DNA of 64,000 bases, from the NCBI GenBank assembly GCA_947479085.1, contig CANJYB010000004.1:62001-126000 (forward strand). Reading direction: 5' to 3'. The position numbers and the translations under genes are program-made. The notes beneath the pieces are model-generated. The model had not been told where the DNA came from and made no database searches. It saw nothing but the letters and a program-made list of their open reading frames with translations. Numbering within the stretch: position 1 is the first letter of the stretch; every line of letters begins with the position of its first letter. Shown here in pieces: positions 153-55,770 of this stretch. The DNA comes from Bacteroidota bacterium (GTDB taxonomy: Bacteria; Bacteroidota; Bacteroidia; 2-12-FULL-35-15).

Positions 153-186
153 CCTTTTATCAGTTCTTTGAATTTTAAAGTTTAGT

Positions 187-375
187 GTGGAATTTCTCCG
201 AAAAGATGTGGAAACCTTCTGCAACCTTGAGGAAACTATTCACAGTAATGTGGAACTATTCCACTTTATTGCGGAAACTTTCCGAAAAGATGGGGAACCT
301 TTCCACAAGGCTGAGGAACCTTTTCTTAAGACTGTGGAACTTTTCCACAGTCATGCAGAACACAATAAAATGAAC
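187..375. repeat. Array A: 21-nt degenerate tandem repeat, 8 full units plus a partial one
   Basis: Units start at 187, 208, 229, 250, 271, 292, 313 and 334, all exactly 21 nt, followed by a decaying ninth copy at 355. Each begins G-N-G-G-A-A and most contain a dyad (GTGGAA-CTA-TTCCAC in unit 4, GTGGAA-CTT-TTCCAC in unit 8). Units 1-4 resemble units 5-8 in order (for example CCGAAAAGAT closes units 1 and 5, and GAGG opens units 3 and 7), which implies an 84-nt higher-order duplication. Two forward frames stay open across it because the period is divisible by three; I do not call a gene. It ends 55-65 nt before the gene at 430. Confidence 0.9.
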
Positions 376-17525: not shown

Positions 17526-18353
17526 ATGAAAAAGTTCATTTTAATTGATTGTGCAGTAGTAAGTATAGTTATCTTCCTTTTTTCATTTACCAGAGAAAAG
17601 GAAATGCCGCAAATTCAAAATGATGGTGATGTAAAACAACTTCCTGTTGTTAAAAATGTTGCATTTAAACGCGGTGAGAAGCTTGTTTTCCGTATGCACT
17701 ATGGTGTAATAGAAGCAGGAGAAGCCACCTTAGGAATAACAGAGGAAACAAAGGAACTTGCCGGAAGAAAAACTTTTCACGTAGTAGGTTTGGGTGTTAC
17801 CAAAGGAATGTTCGAATTTTTTTACAGCGTTCGCGACCGTTACGAAACGTATATTGATGAGCAATCCATCATTCCCTGGATGTTTTTAAGAAGTGTGAAT
17901 GAGGGCGGTTACAAAATAGACCAGGTATATGTTTTTAATCATTACAAACATAAAGTAGATGTGGGTGGCGGAGAGATGTTCCCTATTGAACCAAGTATGC
18001 AGGATATGTTGTCGGCATTTTATTCGGCCCGGACTATGGATTTGTCGGCTGCCAAAGAAGGAGAGCTTTATTCCATCAACTGTTTTATGGATAAAGAAGT
18101 ATGGCCATTAAAGATAAAATTCATTTGCCGCGAAACCGTTACTACCGATTTGGGTACTTTTAAATGCCTTAAGTTTCGCCCTATAGTTCAGAAAGGACGG
18201 GTGTTTAAACATGAAGAGGATTTGAATGTTTGGATTACCGATGATAAAAACCATATTGTTATAAAAGGACAAGCCGATGTATTGATTGGTTCTATTAAAG
18301 CGGAATTAACTTCTTATTCCGGTTTGGCAAACCCGGTTTCAAAGGTGGAATAA
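17526..18353 (+). CDS. DUF3108-domain protein (275 aa)
   Basis: An N-terminal hydrophobic segment (about 4-22) marks an exported or anchored protein. The body matches the DUF3108 pattern in my reading: an early GEKLVFRMHYGVIEAGEATL, then FEFFYSVRDRYETY, and a C-terminal LNVWITDDKNHIVIKGQA. Related proteins are beta-rich and periplasmic with no established reaction. It lies 60 bp after leuS without a terminator between and is followed by a strong terminator. Confidence 0.75.
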   Translation: MKKFILIDCAVVSIVIFLFSFTREKEMPQIQNDGDVKQLPVVKNVAFKRGEKLVFRMHYGVIEAGEATLGITEETKELAGRKTFHVVGLGVTKGMFEFFYSVRDRYETYIDEQSIIPWMFLRSVNEGGYKIDQVYVFNHYKHKVDVGGGEMFPIEPSMQDMLSAFYSARTMDLSAAKEGELYSINCFMDKEVWPLKIKFICRETVTTDLGTFKCLKFRPIVQKGRVFKHEEDLNVWITDDKNHIVIKGQADVLIGSIKAELTSYSGLANPVSKVE

Positions 18354-18366
18354 ATTGAATTGAAAG

Positions 18367-18406
18367 AAAGGGTTTGTAAGTTTAAATCTAAACTTACACC
18401 CTTTTT
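18367..18406 (+). terminator. Terminator after the DUF3108 gene
   Basis: GTAAGTTTA-AATC-TAAACTTAC forms a 9-bp stem extended by AAGGGT/ACCCTT with a small bulge, followed by TTTTTC. Confidence 0.85.
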
Positions 18407-18434
18407 CTTCACTTTCTCCTACTTTCTTTCAATC

Positions 18435-18808
18435 TTCCTATCCTTTCTCTCCATCTTCCCATACTTTATTTCCACTTTCCTATACTTTTTTCAAATTTTC
18501 CTATCCTTTTCGGCAATTCTTCCCTAAGATTTTGATTTTTTCCCAGAAGATTTTGCTTTTTTTCTAGAAGATTTTCATTTTTTCCCAGAAGATTTTGAAA
18601 TTTTCCCAGAAGATTTCCGTTTTTTCCTAGAAGATTTCGATTTTTTCCTAGAAGATTTCGGAAAAAGTATAGGAAGATTTGAAAAAAGTATGGGAAAGTG
18701 AGGAAAAAGGTTAGGGTTTTTGAAAATAAGGTAGGGGTTTTTGAAAAAAAGTATAGGAAGATTATAAAAAAGGTTAGGAAGAAAGGAAAAAAGTATGGGA
18801 ATTTAAAG
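18435..18808. repeat. Array B: 21-nt repeats with an inverted right arm
   Basis: Eleven units start every 21 nt from 18435 to 18645. The first four carry TTCCTATCC or TTCCTATAC cores; the next seven carry TTCCCAGAAGATTTT or TTCCTAGAAGATTT. From about 18660 the motif flips: AAAAAGTATAGGAAG and AAAAAAGTATGGGAA units, spaced 19-23 nt, are the reverse complement of the left-arm units. The locus could fold into a long imperfect hairpin with the AGAAGATTT units in the loop. The irregular spacing on the right breaks reading frames. Confidence 0.85.
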
Positions 18809-19115
18809 AACTACCATAACAAAACTGGTTCTAGCCTGATTTCTTTGGAAAAGAAAAAACAGTACGCTGATTTAACTTATTTGTGATGATAAAACATGAT
18901 TTATGATTCAATGTATGATTAAAGCCTTCGGCAATTATGATATGCGCATTCGAATAACATAGGTTTTTATCATAACTCCAATCGCCTCCCCCAAATCATT
19001 TTTATCATAAATGAAAACATATTTTATCTGCGTACAAAAAAATTTACCTATAAGATTTAGGGCAGAACCTTAAAACTACTGTTAAAAATCATAATTGCCA
19101 TTTATTGTTTTTATC
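18809..19115. other. Intergenic stretch without a recognised gene
   Basis: About 300 bp between array B and the kynA promoter. Frames are broken by stops, and I see no RNA gene or repeat. It is AT-rich and contains several TGATTTATGATT-like words. Confidence 0.5.
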
Positions 19116-19167: not shown

Positions 19168-20133
19168 ATGGAACTGAAACCTGAAATTATCCACCGCATA
19201 AAACTTCTTGACGCAAAATACCAGGCCATGGGTCAGGATTTATCGTCTTACCTGGATGGTTTGCTTTATGCTGATTACCTTACCTATTGGGATTACATTC
19301 ATCTCGACACCTTGTTGAGTTTGCAAAGTCCAAAGACTAATATACCGGACGAAAAAATATTCATAATGTATCACCAGGTTACGGAATTGTATTTCAAACT
19401 TTGCCTGCACGAATATAATCAGCTGGCGGAAAAGGAAAACCTGGATGTGAAATTCCTTACTGCGCGCATTACCCGCATCAACCGTTATTTTGAAGCCCTC
19501 ATTACTTCCTTCGATATCATGGTGGATGGAATGGACCCTCAGCAGTTTTTAAAATTCCGTATGAGTTTACTGCCCGCAAGTGGTTTTCAGTCGGGACAAT
19601 ACCGGATGATTGAAATTTGTTCTACTACCTTTAAACATCTTGTTGCTAAAGACGTTCGCGAAACATTCAGTGACGATGCCGATGAAAACCAGATAGAAAA
19701 AATGTACGAACACATTTACTGGAAAGCAGGAGCAACGGAACTTTCGAGCGGTAAAAAAACATTAACACTGGTTCAGTTCGAAGAAAAATACCAGGAACAA
19801 TTTATTCAGCTGGCCAAAAAATTCAGAAAAACAAATCTCTTATCACTTTATAAATCATTGCCGGAGGCTGATCAGCAGGATGAAAAACTAAAACTCGCCC
19901 TGCGTCAGATGGATGTGAATGTGAACATTAACTGGCCACTTTCGCATTATAAATCTGCCGTTCGATATTTGCAAAAAGACCCGGAAGACATAGCAGCAAC
20001 AGGCGGAACCAACTGGCAGAAGTACTTGCCTCCCCGTTTTCAGAAAAGAATTTTTTATCCTGAGCTATGGAGTGAAGAAGAAATTGCAGAATGGGGAAAA
20101 GCCTGGGTAAAGACGGTGGTGTTTAATAAATAA
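19168..20133 (+). CDS. kynA: Tryptophan 2,3-dioxygenase (321 aa)
   Basis: A haem enzyme that opens the indole ring of tryptophan to N-formylkynurenine, the first step of the kynurenine pathway. Family marks include LTYWDYIHLDTLLSLQSPK, the haem-proximal-region FIMYHQVTELYFKLCLHE and FQSGQYRMIE. Length is slightly above the usual 280-300. Later enzymes of the pathway lie at 32859 (kynureninase) and 34915 (kynurenine monooxygenase) rather than adjacent. It is convergent with the DAHP synthase gene with a 1-bp gap. Confidence 0.95.
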   Translation: MELKPEIIHRIKLLDAKYQAMGQDLSSYLDGLLYADYLTYWDYIHLDTLLSLQSPKTNIPDEKIFIMYHQVTELYFKLCLHEYNQLAEKENLDVKFLTARITRINRYFEALITSFDIMVDGMDPQQFLKFRMSLLPASGFQSGQYRMIEICSTTFKHLVAKDVRETFSDDADENQIEKMYEHIYWKAGATELSSGKKTLTLVQFEEKYQEQFIQLAKKFRKTNLLSLYKSLPEADQQDEKLKLALRQMDVNVNINWPLSHYKSAVRYLQKDPEDIAATGGTNWQKYLPPRFQKRIFYPELWSEEEIAEWGKAWVKTVVFNK

Positions 20134-23633: not shown

Positions 23634-26447
23634 ATGAATCGTATTTTCTCCCTTCTTTTTTTTCTATTCACTACATCTCTTATCGCTCAAAATGGTGAAA
23701 TAAAAGGAACCATTAAAGATGTTACCACTGGCGAAACGGTGGTGGGTGCAACTGTTATGTACGCTCCAGGCAAAGGAACGCTAACCGACATTAATGGTAA
23801 TTTTTCCATCAAGATAGATTCGGCCGGAACCTATAACCTTATCATTTCCTATGTAGGATTTGAGGCACAAAAAATGAACGTTAAGGTGGGGGACAAACCG
23901 GTAGTAGTTAATTTCGACTTAAAGCAAAATGCGCTGGAAGAAGTGGAAGTGGTGGCTGATGTGGCCAAAACCAGAGAAACCCCAATAGCATTTTCCAATG
24001 TATCCACAAAACAAATTCAAGAAGAATTAGGCACTAAAGATTTGCCGATGGTATTGAATACCACTCCTGGAGCCTATGCGACCGAGCAGGGAGGAGGAAG
24101 CGGTGATGCTCGTATCAACATTAGAGGATTTGACCAACGATACGTAGCCGTGATGGTAGACGGAGTGCCTGTGAACGATATGGAAAACGGAGCTGTTTAT
24201 TGGAGTAACTGGGATGGATTGGGTGACATAACCAGAAGTATGCAAGTACAAAGAGGATTGGGAGCTTCCAAACTTGCTATTCCTTCAGTTGGAGGTACCA
24301 TAAATATTATCACCAAAGGTATTGACCAAAAGATGGGAGCCCAAATAAAACAAGAGATAAATGATTTCGGTTTATACAAGACATCTTTTGGTTTCAATTC
24401 GGGGAATTTGAAAGGCGATTGGGGCATTACTATGGGTGGCTCACATAAATGGGGAGACCAATGGGCGGATGGAACTTTTACTGACGCTTATTCTTATTTT
24501 ATCAAAGTTCAAAAACGATTTAAAAAACATTTGTTCAGTATCAGCGCTAATGGAGCGCCTCAAAAGCATGGTCAGCGATTAGACCGATTACCGATAGCTG
24601 TTTATAGTAAATCATTTGCTGAAAAACTAGGAATCAATGCTGATTCTGTTTACTCACATTCTCCGAGCTATAATGTTGCTCATACCGAAAGAGGATTAAC
24701 ATATAACCCAAACTGGGGAATGCTGAATGGAGAAGCTTTTAATGAAAGAGTTAATTACTTTCACAAACCAGCATTCAACTTATCACACTTTTGGTCACCA
24801 AACGAAAAAGTAACTCTTTCTAATGTGGTATATCTCTCAATAGGTAAAGGAGGAGGGACAGGTATGAAGACAACTCTTACCAACCACGATTCTGTGGATG
24901 GCTTATTACCTTTTCAAGGTGTATATCAAATAAATACTACCACACTGCCGAATAGCACTTATAGTAGTACGGAACGCGCTTCTTCCAATTACCTAAGGGC
25001 ATCCATTAACAATCATATATGGTATGGCATCATTTCTACCCTAAATTACAAAGTTAATTCTTCTCTTTCAACATTATTTGGTTTGGATTTACGCTCCTAT
25101 AAAGGAACTCATTACCAAACGCCATATGACTTGATGGGAGGAGATTTTGTAATAGATGTATCGGATAAAAACCAACCCACACCATCTTATGTTGGGGATC
25201 CTAATTGGCAAATCAGGATGAAACGAGTGGGAGATAAAACTAGTTATTACAACGATTCAAAAGTAATGTGGGGAGGCTTTTTTGCCCAAATTGAATACAA
25301 AAAAAATAAATGGAGCATGTTTGGAACTTTTTCTATTTCCGAAACAGGCTATCAACGTATAGATTATTTTAAAAAGAAAGATTTAATATTTGATAACAAT
25401 TCTTACGCCCAAATAGTAGGCTATGGAGATGCTGTTTATTACAATGGTTCAGAATATTTATTTGCTGCAAATGGTTCTGCCGCGAACAGTGTAAGTATTA
25501 ACGGGGATACCACTTTTGTAGGCAACAAGTACATTCTGAATGCCAAAAAATATACAAATGAATCACCAGAGGCTCGATATTCTACCACCGGTAAAAAATG
25601 GTTTTTAGGATATACTGTAAAAGGAGGGGCGAATTACAATATCAACGATCACCATAATGTATTTATAAATTTGGGTTATCTTAATATGGCTCCTCTGATG
25701 AGTACTGTTTTTGATATCAATAATCAAGAATATATTAACATTCAAAACCAAAAAGTATACGCGATAGAAGGGGGATATGGATTTAAGCATCAAAAATTTG
25801 CTGCTAATGTTAACTTATATTATACCATTTGGAAAAATAAACCATCAAGTGGTACAAAGAACATTGGAGGGGACACCTATTATTACAATATACTTGGCTT
25901 AAATGCACTTCATGAAGGAGTTGAAATAGATTTAGTTTATAAATTCAATAAAAAGTTAGAGGTTGAAGGTATTGCTTCTTTGGGTGATTGGAGAAATACT
26001 TCGGGTTCAACAGTTGAAGTAACAGATGAAAATGGGAAACTTGTCGAAAAAGTTGATTTTAGTGCTATTAATGTGCATGTGAGTGATGCAGCACAAACAC
26101 AATTGGGAGGCAGCTTGAGGTATACTGTAATTAAAGGTTTATATATCAAACCTCGCTTTACCTATTTTTCACGCCACTATGCATTTATGAATCCAACCAA
26201 TTTAACAGGACTTGATAAAGACAGAGAATCATGGAAAATTCCGGCTTATAGCGTTCTTGATCTGTTTGCAGGTTATAATTTTGATTATTGGAAAATGAAA
26301 TTCGGAATAACAGCAGGAATGTCAAATGTTCTCAATTCGACCTATATAACCGATGCTCAAAACGGGACTGATTTTAACGCCACATCAGCCCTAGTTTTTA
26401 TGGGTAGTGGAAGAAGAATGATTGTGGGACTTAAAATAGGTTTTTAG
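23634..26447 (+). CDS. SusC-like TonB-dependent receptor with carboxypeptidase-like N-domain (937 aa)
   Basis: An outer-membrane importer. A signal peptide (1-18, LIAQ) is followed by a carboxypeptidase-regulatory-like beta-sandwich (about 20-100: GEIKGTIKDVTTGETVVGATV, ILISYVGFE-like), a plug domain (NIRGFDQRYVAVMVDGVPVND, SVGGTINIITKG) and a long beta barrel. No SusD-like lipoprotein gene follows, so the ligand is not necessarily a glycan. It lies directly after a terminator, with no own consensus promoter visible in the 50-bp gap. Downstream is array C. Confidence 0.92.
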   Translation: MNRIFSLLFFLFTTSLIAQNGEIKGTIKDVTTGETVVGATVMYAPGKGTLTDINGNFSIKIDSAGTYNLIISYVGFEAQKMNVKVGDKPVVVNFDLKQNALEEVEVVADVAKTRETPIAFSNVSTKQIQEELGTKDLPMVLNTTPGAYATEQGGGSGDARINIRGFDQRYVAVMVDGVPVNDMENGAVYWSNWDGLGDITRSMQVQRGLGASKLAIPSVGGTINIITKGIDQKMGAQIKQEINDFGLYKTSFGFNSGNLKGDWGITMGGSHKWGDQWADGTFTDAYSYFIKVQKRFKKHLFSISANGAPQKHGQRLDRLPIAVYSKSFAEKLGINADSVYSHSPSYNVAHTERGLTYNPNWGMLNGEAFNERVNYFHKPAFNLSHFWSPNEKVTLSNVVYLSIGKGGGTGMKTTLTNHDSVDGLLPFQGVYQINTTTLPNSTYSSTERASSNYLRASINNHIWYGIISTLNYKVNSSLSTLFGLDLRSYKGTHYQTPYDLMGGDFVIDVSDKNQPTPSYVGDPNWQIRMKRVGDKTSYYNDSKVMWGGFFAQIEYKKNKWSMFGTFSISETGYQRIDYFKKKDLIFDNNSYAQIVGYGDAVYYNGSEYLFAANGSAANSVSINGDTTFVGNKYILNAKKYTNESPEARYSTTGKKWFLGYTVKGGANYNINDHHNVFINLGYLNMAPLMSTVFDINNQEYINIQNQKVYAIEGGYGFKHQKFAANVNLYYTIWKNKPSSGTKNIGGDTYYYNILGLNALHEGVEIDLVYKFNKKLEVEGIASLGDWRNTSGSTVEVTDENGKLVEKVDFSAINVHVSDAAQTQLGGSLRYTVIKGLYIKPRFTYFSRHYAFMNPTNLTGLDKDRESWKIPAYSVLDLFAGYNFDYWKMKFGITAGMSNVLNSTYITDAQNGTDFNATSALVFMGSGRRMIVGLKIGF

Positions 26448-26617
26448 GATTGCTTTCAATCGTTCAATAAATCGCTAGTCATTTTGTAGGGAGTTTGAAT
26501 TTTACAAAATTAAATAGCATTCGTTCTTTCTTTTCTTTAAACCATTTCGAAAAAAATGGAACTTGAATTTAGTTTCAGGTTAAGTTTCTTTCGGGAAACA
26601 CAATTTGTTCGAAGGAA

Positions 26618-26935
26618 CAAGTGACCTATTTTTTTCCAGACGTAGGTTGACAGGTCTGGCAAGTGAACTATTTTTTTCCAGACATGGGTTGACAGGTCTG
26701 ACAAGTGAACTATTTTTTTCCAGACGTAGGTTGACAGGTCTGACAAGTGACCTATTTTTTTCCAGACGTAGGTTGACAGGTCTGGCAAGTGAACTATTTT
26801 TTTCCAGACATGGGTTGACAGGTCTGACAAGTGAACTATTTTTTTCCAGACGTAGGTTGTCCGTTCTGACAAGTGACCTATTTTTTTCCAGACATAGGTT
26901 GGCAGTTCTCACAAGTGACCTATTTTTTTCCAGTC
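26618..26935. repeat. Array C: 42-nt (2 x 21) tandem repeat, 7.5 units, with 126-nt higher order
   Basis: Units start at 26618, 26660, 26702, 26744, 26786, 26828 and 26870, all exactly 42 nt, with a half unit from 26912. Each contains CAAGTGAMCTATTTTTTT and CCAGAC...GTCTGG, a 6-bp dyad. Units 1-3 differ from each other (GACC/CGTAGG, GAAC/CATGGG, GAAC/CGTAGG) and units 4-6 repeat that order, a 126-nt duplication. The last two units are the most diverged. A 184-codon forward frame crosses it but is not called. Confidence 0.95.
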
Positions 26936-27203
26936 GCCAAATGGCAATGCTAACAACCAGCATTTTATACAAAAAATGGAAAATTTGGCAGAAAACAAAG
27001 AACGGAACACTTGTACTGCAAAAATGTCAGTTTGGAACAAGGCTCAAAGAAGTAAAAAAGGGAAATTCTTCCCTCCTTTTTCCCTTCGGGAGAAAAAAGA
27101 AAAAGAAGGCGATGGACAAAAAAGTGGTACTTTGGTCCGAAATTAAAAAAAGCAAATAACCAATCAGTGAATAAATAATTAACAAAAAACAATTAAACAA
27201 AAA
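26936..27203. other. Intergenic region between array C and the endonuclease gene
   Basis: A purine-rich forward strand (AAAAAGGGAAATTC..., AGAAAAAAGAAAAAGAAGG) with an imperfect TTCCCTCCTTTTTCCCTTCGGGAG-like centre. I see no gene, terminator or clear promoter. Confidence 0.4.
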
Positions 27204-29459
27204 ATGAAAAAAATTACCTTATTAGTATTGTTTGCTTTTATGGCAAACGTAACTATTTTTGCACAGGCCACTTTGCCTGACACATGCAGCTTTGTTGGAA
27301 CCACCGTGCCTACAGGATGGGTGTGGACCTCGAGCAACCCAACACCTTATTATCCGGCATCGGGCAATCCGGCTCCGGCAGCGAAGTTCTCCATTTCGGG
27401 CGACATGCTAACCATCAGTTTTACCACCACTCCCGGTTTATTATCTTACGATATTTCCGGAAACAATGTGGGTAATCCTTGGGCAGGCGATTTTAGAGTA
27501 GAAGAATCGGTAAACGGAACAACTTACACTACTGTAGGTACCGCTTACACTTCCATTACCGCTACCAATGCTTATGTTCACCATACAGCAATGCTTACCG
27601 GAGCAAGTCGTTTTGTGAGATTTCATATGATTACACATACTGCCGGAAACATAGGTTTGGACAATGTGGGTATTAGAGCAGGTGTTTCGACCACACAACA
27701 AATGAATGTAACTCAAAGTGGAAATACCATTCTTAACGGTGGTTCGTTTGTAGCCGGTGTAGCTGTATTAACTCCTTTGCCTATTACATTTACGGTACAA
27801 AACTTAGGAACTGTGGGCACACTAAACGTTACAGGAGCTACCCTTTCGGGTCCTGCAATGGCTGATTATGCAATTACTTCTTCGTTTCCGTTTGCAGTTG
27901 CTCCAGTTGGAAATGCTCCTTTAGCCATAACCTTTACGCCATCGGCAGCGGGTACACGCAGTGCCGTGTTAACTATTGCCAATGACGACCCTACTGCTAA
28001 TCCTTATATTATTAACTTAAACTGTATGGGCGGTACTTCGGCTACCGAACCTACGGCACAACCTACAGCTTTAACTTTTCCAGTTAACAAATCGTATCGT
28101 TTGATTGCTAATTTTACTGCAGCTGCAGGCACTCCTGATGGATATTTAATTTTGAGAAAAACAGGAAGCGCTCCAACCGATTTGCCGGTTGATGGAACCG
28201 TTTACACACGTGGTGATATGATTGGAACTTCTAAAGTGGTTGCTTCTAATGCTGCCACTGGATTTATGCCAAACGATATTAAATCGAACACTCAATATTT
28301 CTTTGCTATTTATGCTTACAATGGTGTAGGAACTTTCCGTAATTACTTACTTACATCTCCATTAACAGGAAGTGTAACCACCTCGGGAACGATGATTACT
28401 GCAGGTTATTACAGTGGAATCAACACTTCTGCTCCTACATTTGTAACCGACCTACATAATTTGGTTAGTCCACATACAGTAGAATTATACAGCAATTACG
28501 GACCGAACATGATGAACTACCTGTATCAGCGCGATACTACCGGAGGTGCTCACGTAGCTACTTGTTCGTACAGCGGTGAAAACATTACCTACATCGGAAC
28601 TTTCGACTGGACAACAAACAACATGAGCCGCGAACACACCTATTGCCAAAGCTGGCAGCCGACTGTTAACGACCCTAACTTTACAAGCCGTGGAGAGTAT
28701 AACGATTACCACATGATTACTCCTGTTGACCAAAACAATGTAAACGCTGTGCGTAGTAATTACCCATTGGGTATTGTAGTGGGTACGCCTACTTATACAT
28801 ACATGGGTTGTAAAAAAGGATTGGATGCAGCAGGACACATGGTGTTCGAACCACGCGATGCGGATAAAGGAGATGCTGCTCGTTGCATGTTATATCAGTG
28901 TATTTGCTACACAGGTACCGGAACCAACGGAAACACCGATGCTACCTATGGCGGAAGCTGGTCGTTGCCAAACCACATCAGCACTGCAATACCTCATGGT
29001 CAAAACCAAAACGTATTGAAAACATGGAACATTCTTGATCCTCCTGATAATTTCGAAATTTCTCGTAACGATTTTGTTGATTCAATGCAGAACAACCGTA
29101 ACCCATTTATCGACCATCCTGAATATGTTTGTCACATCAATTTTGATAGTATGCTGTATGCTGCTAACAATACCTGTCTTGGAATGGGAATTAATGAAAA
29201 CACCAATACTGATTTAATTACCCTTGCTCCAAATCCTAACAATGGTAGCTTTATGATTAACTACTCTTCATTAAAAAATGAAAAGGTAACTATGAAACTG
29301 GTTGATATGCTAGGAAGAACAGTATATAGCAACGAAACAAAAGTAAACACAGGAGGTAACCCGATAGACATGAATATTCAGAATGTAAGCAAAGGAATTT
29401 ATTCTTTTGAATTTACCACTGAAAGTGGGACACAATCTCAGAAGTTGGTGATACAATAA
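27204..29459 (+). CDS. Secreted endonuclease I with T9SS sorting signal (751 aa)
   Basis: An extracellular nuclease. A signal peptide (1-20) is followed by a jelly-roll-like region and a choice-of-anchor-D/Ig-like segment (about 155-275), a linker with FNIII character, and the endonuclease I domain (about 400-665) with SREHTYCQSW (His478 of the ββα-metal motif), NDYHMITPVDQNNVNAVRSN and FEPRDADKGDAARCMLY. The C-terminus is a T9SS sorting domain (APNPNNGS to QKLVIQ). DNA degradation for nutrients or biofilm matrix is the likely role. Confidence 0.93.
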   Translation: MKKITLLVLFAFMANVTIFAQATLPDTCSFVGTTVPTGWVWTSSNPTPYYPASGNPAPAAKFSISGDMLTISFTTTPGLLSYDISGNNVGNPWAGDFRVEESVNGTTYTTVGTAYTSITATNAYVHHTAMLTGASRFVRFHMITHTAGNIGLDNVGIRAGVSTTQQMNVTQSGNTILNGGSFVAGVAVLTPLPITFTVQNLGTVGTLNVTGATLSGPAMADYAITSSFPFAVAPVGNAPLAITFTPSAAGTRSAVLTIANDDPTANPYIINLNCMGGTSATEPTAQPTALTFPVNKSYRLIANFTAAAGTPDGYLILRKTGSAPTDLPVDGTVYTRGDMIGTSKVVASNAATGFMPNDIKSNTQYFFAIYAYNGVGTFRNYLLTSPLTGSVTTSGTMITAGYYSGINTSAPTFVTDLHNLVSPHTVELYSNYGPNMMNYLYQRDTTGGAHVATCSYSGENITYIGTFDWTTNNMSREHTYCQSWQPTVNDPNFTSRGEYNDYHMITPVDQNNVNAVRSNYPLGIVVGTPTYTYMGCKKGLDAAGHMVFEPRDADKGDAARCMLYQCICYTGTGTNGNTDATYGGSWSLPNHISTAIPHGQNQNVLKTWNILDPPDNFEISRNDFVDSMQNNRNPFIDHPEYVCHINFDSMLYAANNTCLGMGINENTNTDLITLAPNPNNGSFMINYSSLKNEKVTMKLVDMLGRTVYSNETKVNTGGNPIDMNIQNVSKGIYSFEFTTESGTQSQKLVIQ

Positions 29460-41073: not shown

Positions 41074-41312
41074 GGGACAAAAAAACTCCTTTTGTTTTTA
41101 CCTCATAAACTTCTATAACTATTGTATTTACTTATTTACAGAAGTTCAACCTCCCTATTTTAAAAATTCAATTTTCAGACCTCATCGTTAAAAATCGTAT
41201 ATGATTTTAACTGTAAATTTGCGCAAGCAAAAATTGGGAAACCGATTGGATGCCAAAAACAAGTTCTTTAAAATTTCTGAAAATCGCTTAAAAAAAACCG
41301 CAAACCCAATAT

Positions 41313-41583
41313 TTGAACTTTTGGTGTTAAAGTTTGAATGTTTGGTGTTAGAGTTTCAAACTTTGGTGTCAAATTTTACAATTTGAAATGAATGTTTCAA
41401 ACTTTGGTGTTAAAGTATGAATGTTTGGTGTTAAAGTTTGAAACTTTGGTGTGAAAGCACTGAACTTTGATGCGAAAGTTTGAAACTTAAGTGTGGAATA
41501 TTACAGTTTGAAATGAATGTTTGAAACTTTGGTGTTAAAGTTTGAAAGTTTGAAGCGAAAGTTTGAAACTTTAGAACGAAAGA
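41313..41583. repeat. Array D: 13 units of 21 nt (two of 20 nt)
   Basis: Units start at 41313, 41334, 41355, 41376, 41396, 41417, 41438, 41459, 41480, 41501, 41521, 41542 and 41563. The core is TTGAAACTTTGGTGTTAAAG; AAACTTT and AAAGTTT form a 7-bp dyad across unit junctions. The units at 41376 and 41501 are 20 nt and nearly identical, 125 nt apart, implying a six-unit higher-order duplication. The 20-nt units shift frame, arguing against coding. It ends 137 nt before the paralogue at 41720. Confidence 0.93.
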
Positions 41584-41719
41584 ATGAAATATAAGGTTTT
41601 TAGGAATAATTGCTCAAATACAAGTAGTTATCTTTTGAAAAAAGTAAAATTAACTTGGAAAGAAGGGAAACACCAGGAATTGTAAATCAAAAATCGTAAA
41701 CCAATTAAAACTAAATAAT

Positions 41720-42545: not shown

Positions 42546-42699
42546 TTGAAATTTTCTTAATTGCGAAGCAATGATTATATCTCAAATCATAAAGCTATTG
42601 CATGATAAGGAAATCATTTTTATCCATTGAATCTTAATAAATCTGCGTTCCGATCATACTCCAACATTTAAACCCAATTCTCTTACCTTTGCAGAACAA

Positions 42700-42747
42700 A
42701 TGATTTAGCTCAAAAAACACCAGATGGTAAAGTTGCTCATCGAAACT
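42700..42747 (+). pseudogene. Broken 5' fragment of the 42901 gene
   Basis: ATG ATT TAG matches the live gene's ATG ATT TAC, so the third codon is a stop. The next codons still align (LKKHQMVKLLIE against LKKYLRVKLLIE) until the duplication ends. Its own TACCTTTG box is intact, so it may still be transcribed. Confidence 0.75.
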
Positions 42748-42883
42748 TTATTTTCTTAATTGCGAAGCAATAATCATATCTCAAATCATAAAACTATTTC
42801 AGGATAAGGAAATCATTTTTTATCCATTGAATCTTAATAAATCTGCGTTCCAATCATACTCCAACATTTAAACCCAATTCTCT

Positions 42884-42891
42884 TACCTTTG
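42884..42891 (+). promoter_or_regulatory. -7 box TACCTTTG for the 42901 gene
   Basis: An exact TAnnTTTG match ending 9 nt before the ATG. It excludes the in-frame TTG at 42889, which lies inside the box. Confidence 0.65.
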
Positions 42892-42900
42892 CAAAATAAA

Positions 42901-43200
42901 ATGATTTACCTTAAAAAATACCTGCGTGTGAAACTACTCATCGAAAACGTTTGTAAATACGAACTCATGGGCATTTACCGCCCGCAGGCATACATAAAGG
43001 AGTCGAAAAGTTACAATACCGAATGCCAGATAGAATTTTATAAAAAACCACTGGAGCGGGGCGAAAGCAGGGTAATCAATGCAGTACTTTTTGCCCCTCA
43101 CGGATATGGAGAGCATTTAAAACAAGGAAGTTTGTTAACTTTGCGCAATGGTATGGATATTGAGGCAAAAGCGGTGGTGTTGGAAATTGTCGGATACTGA
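42901..43200 (+). CDS. Small protein resembling EF-Tu domain 3 (99 aa)
   Basis: The middle and end recall the C-terminal beta barrel of EF-Tu: YRPQAYI aligns with the conserved YRPQFYI, and the end LKQGSLLTLRNG...AKAVVLEI aligns with GLRFAIREGG...GAGxxTEI. No GTPase domain is present, so it is not an elongation factor. What it binds is unknown. The start is set by the -7 box; the N-terminus is included in the 200-bp duplication. Confidence 0.6.
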   Translation: MIYLKKYLRVKLLIENVCKYELMGIYRPQAYIKESKSYNTECQIEFYKKPLERGESRVINAVLFAPHGYGEHLKQGSLLTLRNGMDIEAKAVVLEIVGY

Positions 43201-55497: not shown

Positions 55498-55770
55498 ATT
55501 ACAGTTGAATTAAGAGCTAATACAGTGGAAACCAGAACTAATACAACCGTATGAAGACCTAATACAGTTATATAAAGAGTTAATACAGTTGTATGAAGTG
55601 CTAATACAACTGTATAAAGACTTAATGCTGTTGTATAAGGAGCTAATACAGTTTTATGAAGAGCTAATACAGTTGTATAAACGACAAATATAGTTGGTGG
55701 AAGACCAAATACAATTGAATGAGGAGCAAATACAATTGAATAAATAGCAAAACCAGTTGTATAAAGTGCT
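55498..55770. repeat. Array E: 13 units of exactly 21 nt, AATACAGTTGTAT core
   Basis: Units start every 21 nt from 55498 to 55750. Most read AATACAGTTGTAT followed by AAAGAGCT or GAAGAGCT; ATAC and GTAT form a small dyad. The unit at 55603 has AATACAACTGTAT, the inverted version of its neighbour's core. TATGAAG and TATAAAG endings alternate in places, suggesting an older 42-nt dimer. Edge units are the most diverged. The reverse strand has a 130-codon open frame of hydrophobic heptads, not called as a gene. Confidence 0.95.

Follow-up and report, generated by a model that had tools for sequence, protein, structure and literature searches.

We asked why the spacer between a DUF3108 protein gene and a tryptophan 2,3-dioxygenase-like gene in an uncultured Bacteroidota genome carries a tandem array, here called array B, whose 21-nt units stand head to head. 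An inverted arrangement of this kind could be the substance of a hairpin or cruciform particular to the locus, or array B could be one member of a wider set of sequences. The array lies in a 64,000-nt stretch of contig CANJYB010000004.1 (contig 4), the whole of which we call the window; positions without a locus name are those of the window.

Array B is built of nineteen units in a single 21-nt register

When the sequence is set out in 21-nt columns, 18414-18812 consists of 19 gap-free 21-nt units, all intergenic. An earlier reading made from the letters alone (the sequence-only reading) had located the array correctly, but its limits of 18435 and 18808 were too narrow; the ends lie at about 18414 and 18812. 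The array and its surroundings are laid out as follows.

17526..18353, forward strand: DUF3108 protein gene (PF11306), upstream of array B
18362..18410, forward strand: terminator-like hairpin with a 2-nt bulge, then TTTTTCTT, at the end of the DUF3108 gene (z -5.7)
18379..18819, no strand: segment common to a second genomic copy on contig 16 of the same genome (G000), opposite strand, L011:6145-6564, 86% identical
18414..18518, no strand: left part of array B; its five 21-nt units follow TTCC(T/C)AT(A/C)CTTT (TTCCTATACTTT type), lag-21 identity 0.73
18519..18665, no strand: middle part of array B, seven 21-nt units TTCC(C/T)AGAAGATTT in direct order, the first degenerate, lag-21 identity 0.79
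18666..18812, no strand: right part of array B; its seven 21-nt units follow AAAAAGTATAGGAA, the inverse of the left-hand type, lag-21 identity 0.63
19168..20133, forward strand: tryptophan 2,3-dioxygenase-like gene (PF03301), downstream of array B

On the left, units of the forms TTCCTATCCTTT, TTCCCATACTTT and TTCCTATACTTT start at 18435, 18456, 18477 and 18498. The AGAAGATTT-type middle units, which can also be written as the TTCCCAGAAGATTT type, recur every 21 nt across 18545-18650, in addition to the degenerate first unit. The right part is made of inverted AAAGTATAGGAA units in a 21-nt register common with the left part; right units of the forms AAAAAGTAT and AAAAAGGTT start at 18662, 18683, 18704, 18746, 18767 and 18788, and the unit at 18725 is recognisable only in degenerate form. 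Self-identity of 18414-18812 at lag 21 was 0.68, compared with a maximum of 0.38 at any lag from 8 to 63 in 200 mononucleotide shuffles.

Inverted arms within the array are complementary over 82 nt at 72%, 55 nt at 78% and 50 nt at 84%. Together with the unit positions they bear out the claim of the sequence-only reading that the left and right units are inverted relatives, and both its count of seven units between the two sides and the strict 21-nt phase that it gave the left side proved correct. The drift of 19 to 23 nt that it attributed to the right side was an error: identity there is 0.63 at lag 21, against 0.37, 0.51, 0.52 and 0.37 at lags 19, 20, 22 and 23, and the whole array runs gap-free in 21-nt columns.

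The folding potential of array B is strong but not clearly maintained

RNA folding of 18400-18810 gave -132 kcal/mol (z -6.5), with none of 100 shuffled sequences folding equally well, so the predicted capacity for a long hairpin was confirmed in silico; the contig 16 copy folds similarly. It could accordingly be argued that array B is a source of long hairpin RNA, or a cruciform, and that its head-to-head order exists for that purpose. The two copies of array B speak against this argument, since their 32 substitutions break 10 predicted pairs where 13.5 would be expected at random (P 0.08) and include two compensatory pairs; selection for the hairpin is therefore not significant, and pairing is not clearly kept. 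The genome's other arrays point both ways: about half fold better than shuffled sequence, those at L064 and L194 to an extreme degree (z about -15), but the remaining half show no folding excess, so a hairpin cannot be the common cause.

Transcription offers this explanation little help. The sequence-only reading had placed a terminator before the array, and a hairpin at about 18362-18410 (-22 kcal/mol, T-rich sequence after it) fits that description, but a strict terminator scan found no bulge-free terminator at the end of the DUF3108 gene, probably because of the bulge in the stem. The 3' half of this hairpin falls within the segment duplicated on contig 16. Promoter-like TTTG-N17-22-TANNTTTG sites occurred at chance level in the window, and none lay inside array B. 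An Rfam scan of the window matched tRNA only, so that no curated family of structured RNA was found at array B. A cruciform or double-stranded RNA as the point of the structure is thus unsupported, and we regard this explanation as very unlikely; set against the genome-wide pattern described below, the capacity of array B to fold looks incidental.

Structure may nevertheless matter in one family of 42-nt arrays, TTTRCTCACCTCC..GGAGGTATATAAAA, which is common to G000, G004, G012 and G015 and gives the hairpin explanation some support, because its arms seem to covary from unit to unit and from species to species (ACCTCC..GGAGGT, ACCTTC..GAAGGT, ACATCC..GGATGT). Its members are:

L069:9916-10194
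L197:11201-11441
L252, L253, L254, L256, L258 and L259

In three places this family adjoins the start of a gene of a 316-318 aa family, with an HxlR-like regulator nearby twice. The 316-318 aa proteins matched no Pfam family above the cut-off, and they are a paralogue group beside one 42-nt family, not a general partner of the arrays. Palindromic units are likewise no general rule: against a column-permuted null just about half of the arrays stand out, and consensus palindromy was significant in 4 of 51. At L064:13209-13465 and L194:3803-4014 the 21-nt unit is itself a near-perfect palindrome (for example TTAATGATTCAATCATTAACC), and at L063:7747-7797 a 21-nt array closes with a perfect inverted repeat of 21 bp, a miniature of the fold-back in array B.

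Whole arrays have been copied between unrelated sites

Searched against the own genome, which totals 4.28 Mb on 50 contigs, array B returned one near-full second copy, on contig 16, which is 86-87% identical over 441 nt and exactly one 21-nt unit shorter. Similarity between the two copies stops at 18379 and 18819, and the flanks beyond are unrelated. The contig 16 copy keeps the head-to-head order and sits between convergent genes that we take, from their translations, to encode an HdrB-like cysteine-rich protein and a Maf-like protein; the gene order around it is not conserved in relatives. An array in the related genome G015 is 75% identical, shares the middle units and has flank units that can still be recognised on the left and right; it stands in a third kind of place that differs from both own-genome loci, beside what is presumably a LytTR-like regulator gene. 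Family B comprises these two copies in the own genome and the one in G015.

Because the same order is found in the contig 16 copy and, in part, in G015, the head-to-head arrangement predates the duplication, and its presence on separate contigs and in a separate assembly makes an assembly artefact unlikely. The proposal that part of an array had been inverted is fair as an account of origin, but nothing points to an inversion that is recent or still switching, the order being kept in the copies. Random orientation in relatives, which the sequence-only reading had said would count against its hairpin, was looked for in part, and in the two related copies orientation is not random.

Copying without flank homology, seen for B on contigs 4 and 16 and at the third place in G015, and for another array at L069/L197, raises the possibility that the arrays are selfish non-autonomous mobile elements of the MITE or fold-back kind that contain a minisatellite, with the arms of B having become long inverted repeats and the period of 21 remaining as a relic of the founder. 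A restriction to one clade with an apparently single gain would suit such elements, and the phylum offers a precedent in BrickBuilt of P. gingivalis (PMC4596501). The junctions of the two B copies, however, share no terminal inverted repeat, with weak TTTAAAT similarity only, and no target-site duplication is visible in the flanks of either copy; ends like those of a BrickBuilt-type MITE were thus not recognised in this comparison of the B junctions. One transposase could hardly recognise arrays of differing sequence, and some arrays are inherited at orthologous spacers. Nor do known enzymes follow the arrays: a REP/RAYT system is rejected because there is no common motif and the number of Y1_Tnp matches does not track arrays (the array-bearing G004 has weak matches only), and repeats made by a reverse transcriptase of the DRT or retron type are rejected because the array-bearing G000, G004 and G015 gave no RVT_1 match. 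We consider mobile elements unlikely as the explanation, if worth weighing.

The locus of array B can do without it. The DUF3108-dioxygenase gene pair is syntenic in relatives, and its spacer, 814 nt long with array B in the own genome, contains no array in G005 (about 116 nt) or G004 (121 nt), so array B is dispensable there. Two other relatives hold arrays unlike B in this spacer: a 21-nt array in G015 (about 604 nt of spacer) and a 42-nt array in G014 (about 458 nt).

Array B belongs to a genome-wide class with a common period

The window contains at least four further arrays whose period is 21 or 42 and whose sequences are unlike.

186..361, no strand: array with the 21-nt unit TGTGGAACCTTTCCACAATGA
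26617..26961, no strand: array with a 42-nt unit; a homologous, strongly diverged 42-nt array lies in the orthologous G004 spacer
41308..41609, no strand: array with a 21-nt unit of type AAGTTTGAAACTTTGGTGTTA, partly palindromic
55500..55770, no strand: array with the 21-nt unit TACAGTTGTATAAAGAGCTAA

We surveyed periods in 800 kb of own-genome sequence chosen regardless of repeats; altogether about 27% of the genome was read. At lags 21, 42, 63, 84, 105 and 126 the survey gave 24, 27, 19, 25, 16 and 27 arrays, respectively, against a mean of 0.9 and a maximum of 6 at all remaining lags from 10 to 129. When each intergenic array was assigned its best period, 31 of 39 had a period of 20.5-22 nt or a multiple: 21 in fifteen, 42 in eight, 22 in three, and 41, 44, 63, 66 and 84 in one each. 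The other eight had periods of 10, 12, 12, 14, 14, 19, 19 and 87. Extrapolation gives about 150 arrays per genome. The main deviation from 21 in the own genome is a period of 22 (44), as in the intergenic arrays at L014:8437-8797, L078:4038-4378 and L189:2732-3056. Periods of three turns (31-32 nt) were absent among the arrays, so the rule is not simply a whole number of turns, and the unit itself is 21.

What the arrays have in common is this period, and little else. Units of different arrays are mostly unrelated and yield no shared consensus, most arrays are singletons within the 27% of the genome read, and their G+C content ranges from 24 to 57%. A typical array has 8-15 units, array B being among the longest, although unit numbers are uncertain in that arrays in short-read MAGs may be collapsed or extended. 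The spacers that hold arrays have orientations (++, --, +-, -+) roughly matching the background, and most intergenic spacers hold none. Mean identity between units at distances of 1 to 7 was.63,.72,.61,.70,.58,.66 and.56; this alternation indicates that many arrays are built of 42-nt pairs. An autocorrelation at 10-11 nt was not found in the arrays, so A-tract curvature is not a general theme.

Several familiar identities could be set aside. A coding repeat of seven residues is rejected because variation is flat across codon positions (0.36/0.36/0.37 in 41 arrays); most arrays do have a fully open frame, but so do most column-shuffled arrays (0.94 vs 0.86). The units are contiguous and diverged, without spacers, unlike those of a CRISPR array.

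Other repeats were seen along the way. The paralogous very large ORFs at L020:3300-5021 and L075:11206-13041 (1526+ and 2788 aa) are each followed by a TTCCCGAAGGAATCAGACGCG-type array, and since both paralogues carry one, array and ORF were duplicated together. At 42551-42922 of the window a 200-nt intergenic sequence stands in two direct copies (92% matches). A dispersed repeat of about 300 nt, which is not a 21-nt array, occurs several times in the own genome and also in G015 (L207:8826-9120, with matches in L019, L066, L072 and L188).

In the genomes sampled, the arrays are confined to one clade

G004 and G015 showed the same excess of periods as the own genome, and G005, G014, G012 and G034 each contained at least one clear array. 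Eight other genomes of the genus yielded no array; the samples, of a size that would miss rare arrays, covered 100 kb each of G002, G009, G010, G016 and G033 and 60 kb each of G003, G011 and G024. In a tree of the DUF3108 protein, which leaves aside the array-free G009 and G010, the seven array-bearing genomes form one clade with support of 0.99, and array-free genomes are its sister group. Elsewhere in the class, lag-21 matches in other families were, where inspected, mostly 7-nt simple repeats. The array class thus apparently goes back to a single gain in a small group of Bacteroidota. The clade includes MAGs of uncultured Bacteroidetes such as Kiruna_bin-09093 and RH-15aug16-189, and sample names suggest lakes as its habitat. 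HU and IHF do not track the arrays as a clade-specific factor would; their gene numbers do not differ between genomes with and without arrays.

Array sequence diverges and phase persists

Orthologous spacers record how the arrays change. In the spacer at 26447-27204, the own genome and G004 both hold a 42-nt array; the flank of the 26617 array is 86% identical to that in G004 over 261 nt, gap-free, and the arrays themselves are strongly diverged, with only short pieces (AGGTTGACAG) still aligning, but remain 42-nt phased. Both arrays, 26617-26961 and L199:15264-15655 in G004, lie upstream of a gene for an endonuclease I / Por-secretion-tail protein. L197 and its G015 orthologue likewise have neighbours that are 95-97% identical as proteins and arrays that are about 70% identical, with the 42-nt phase kept. 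As judged from these sequences, arrays turn over fast, units within one array resemble each other, and phase is preserved.

Neutral minisatellites are another explanation to be weighed. Ordinary slippage would produce functionless arrays whose period was frozen by descent from one founder, and the two B copies do differ by one whole unit, the odd/even pattern of identity is what would be expected if unit pairs duplicate, no codon pattern is present, and arrays are dispensable at given loci. Slippage should, on the other hand, give many periods, and non-multiples of about 21 are rare even though the sequences are unrelated. Small gaps are also fewer in arrays than in other intergenic DNA: per substitution we counted 0.034 inside arrays (indels by banded alignment) and 0.111 where other intergenic DNA from these genomes could be aligned, the 0.034 being biased downward because arrays were chosen by phase coherence. 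We hold neutral minisatellites to be rather unlikely.

Discussion

We tentatively favor, at somewhat less than even confidence, the view that array B is a member of a lineage-specific, satellite-like class of intergenic arrays, with a unit of about two helical turns (21 bp, often as a 42-bp dimer), in which units evolve in concert and the spacing of the DNA is selected. The ancestor of the clade would have acquired, in a single gain, either an array of 21-nt units or a factor by which such arrays are made or favored. The arrays would then have spread as units, growing, shrinking and homogenising by duplication and loss of whole units, and whole arrays would occasionally have been copied to new places. 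The head-to-head order of array B may go back to an old inverted (fold-back) duplication inside the array, before the copying to the second locus. The least certain step is selection on spacing, under which each unit might offer the same face of the helix to a putative nucleoid-type or regulatory DNA-binding protein, with no part for an RNA hairpin.

The periods cluster tightly at 21 nt and deviate mainly to 22, 41 and 44, which fits a constraint of two helical turns. Several points weigh against selected spacing: the gap comparison is biased by the choice of arrays by phase, a fixed period could come passively from one ancestral array, with or without mobility, three-turn periods are absent, no candidate for the binding protein emerged, HU/IHF numbers are alike with and without arrays, and most spacers are array-free, with the locus of array B empty in G004 and G005.

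A single odd array has to be read differently, against a genome-wide pattern. A two-turn period shared without shared sequence, and gained once in a clade, suggests that either the geometry of the DNA is under selection or some unknown process measures out 21 nt. With about 150 arrays, one gain and spacing alone conserved, it is possible, though we think it doubtful, that the arrays form a sequence-independent, helix-phased platform, serving for example a clade-specific nucleoid or array-building protein, or that an unknown enzyme copies DNA in 21-nt steps.

Comparison with known systems

Bacterial intergenic minisatellites usually belong to a single sequence family or, where families are many, have many different periods. 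A class of arrays with fixed period and free sequence in Bacteroidota was not found described in the open-licence literature. The nearest described element that we found is BrickBuilt, a species-limited MITE of P. gingivalis, which is intergenic and of variable copy number, with direct 23-nt units that have no spacers between them (PMC4596501). BrickBuilt has one unit sequence, is present in 19 copies, and carries a leader and a tail with IS5-like terminal inverted repeats (PMC4596501). The arrays described here resemble it in their Bacteroidota host, their dispersed sites and their spacer-free intergenic tandem units, and they additionally keep a helical-turn period under divergence. They differ in that no such ends were found, and in that they number about 150 and consist of mostly unrelated units with only the 21-nt period in common.

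The P. gingivalis elements MITEPgRS / MITE464 are also intergenic and have an internal 41-nt tandem repeat and IS5-like terminal inverted repeats (PMC4596501). That repeat is close to the 41-42-nt dimers of the present arrays, but the elements belong to a single sequence family, whereas the class here spans the genome with unlike sequences. TAACTGA heptamer repeats, known from Beggiatoaceae, Cyanobacteria and some Bacteroidetes, use one fixed 7-nt word (PMC4679880). They too are intergenic direct repeats at many sites per genome and in scattered taxa; the present arrays, in contrast, have no common word, and lags 7 and 14 fall below expectation in them.

Two eukaryotic parallels bear on array B. 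Its arms are put together like those of a fold-back element, but array B is about 440 bp long and geneless, and most arrays of the class are not inverted; the fold-back elements of the FB type in Drosophila have long inverted arms made of short tandem units. Satellite DNA of eukaryotes combines a fixed period with fast sequence turnover and homogenisation within arrays, and the present arrays have all three. They differ from satellites in being short (about 8-19 units), scattered between bacterial genes, and set to a length near two helical turns instead of that of a nucleosome.
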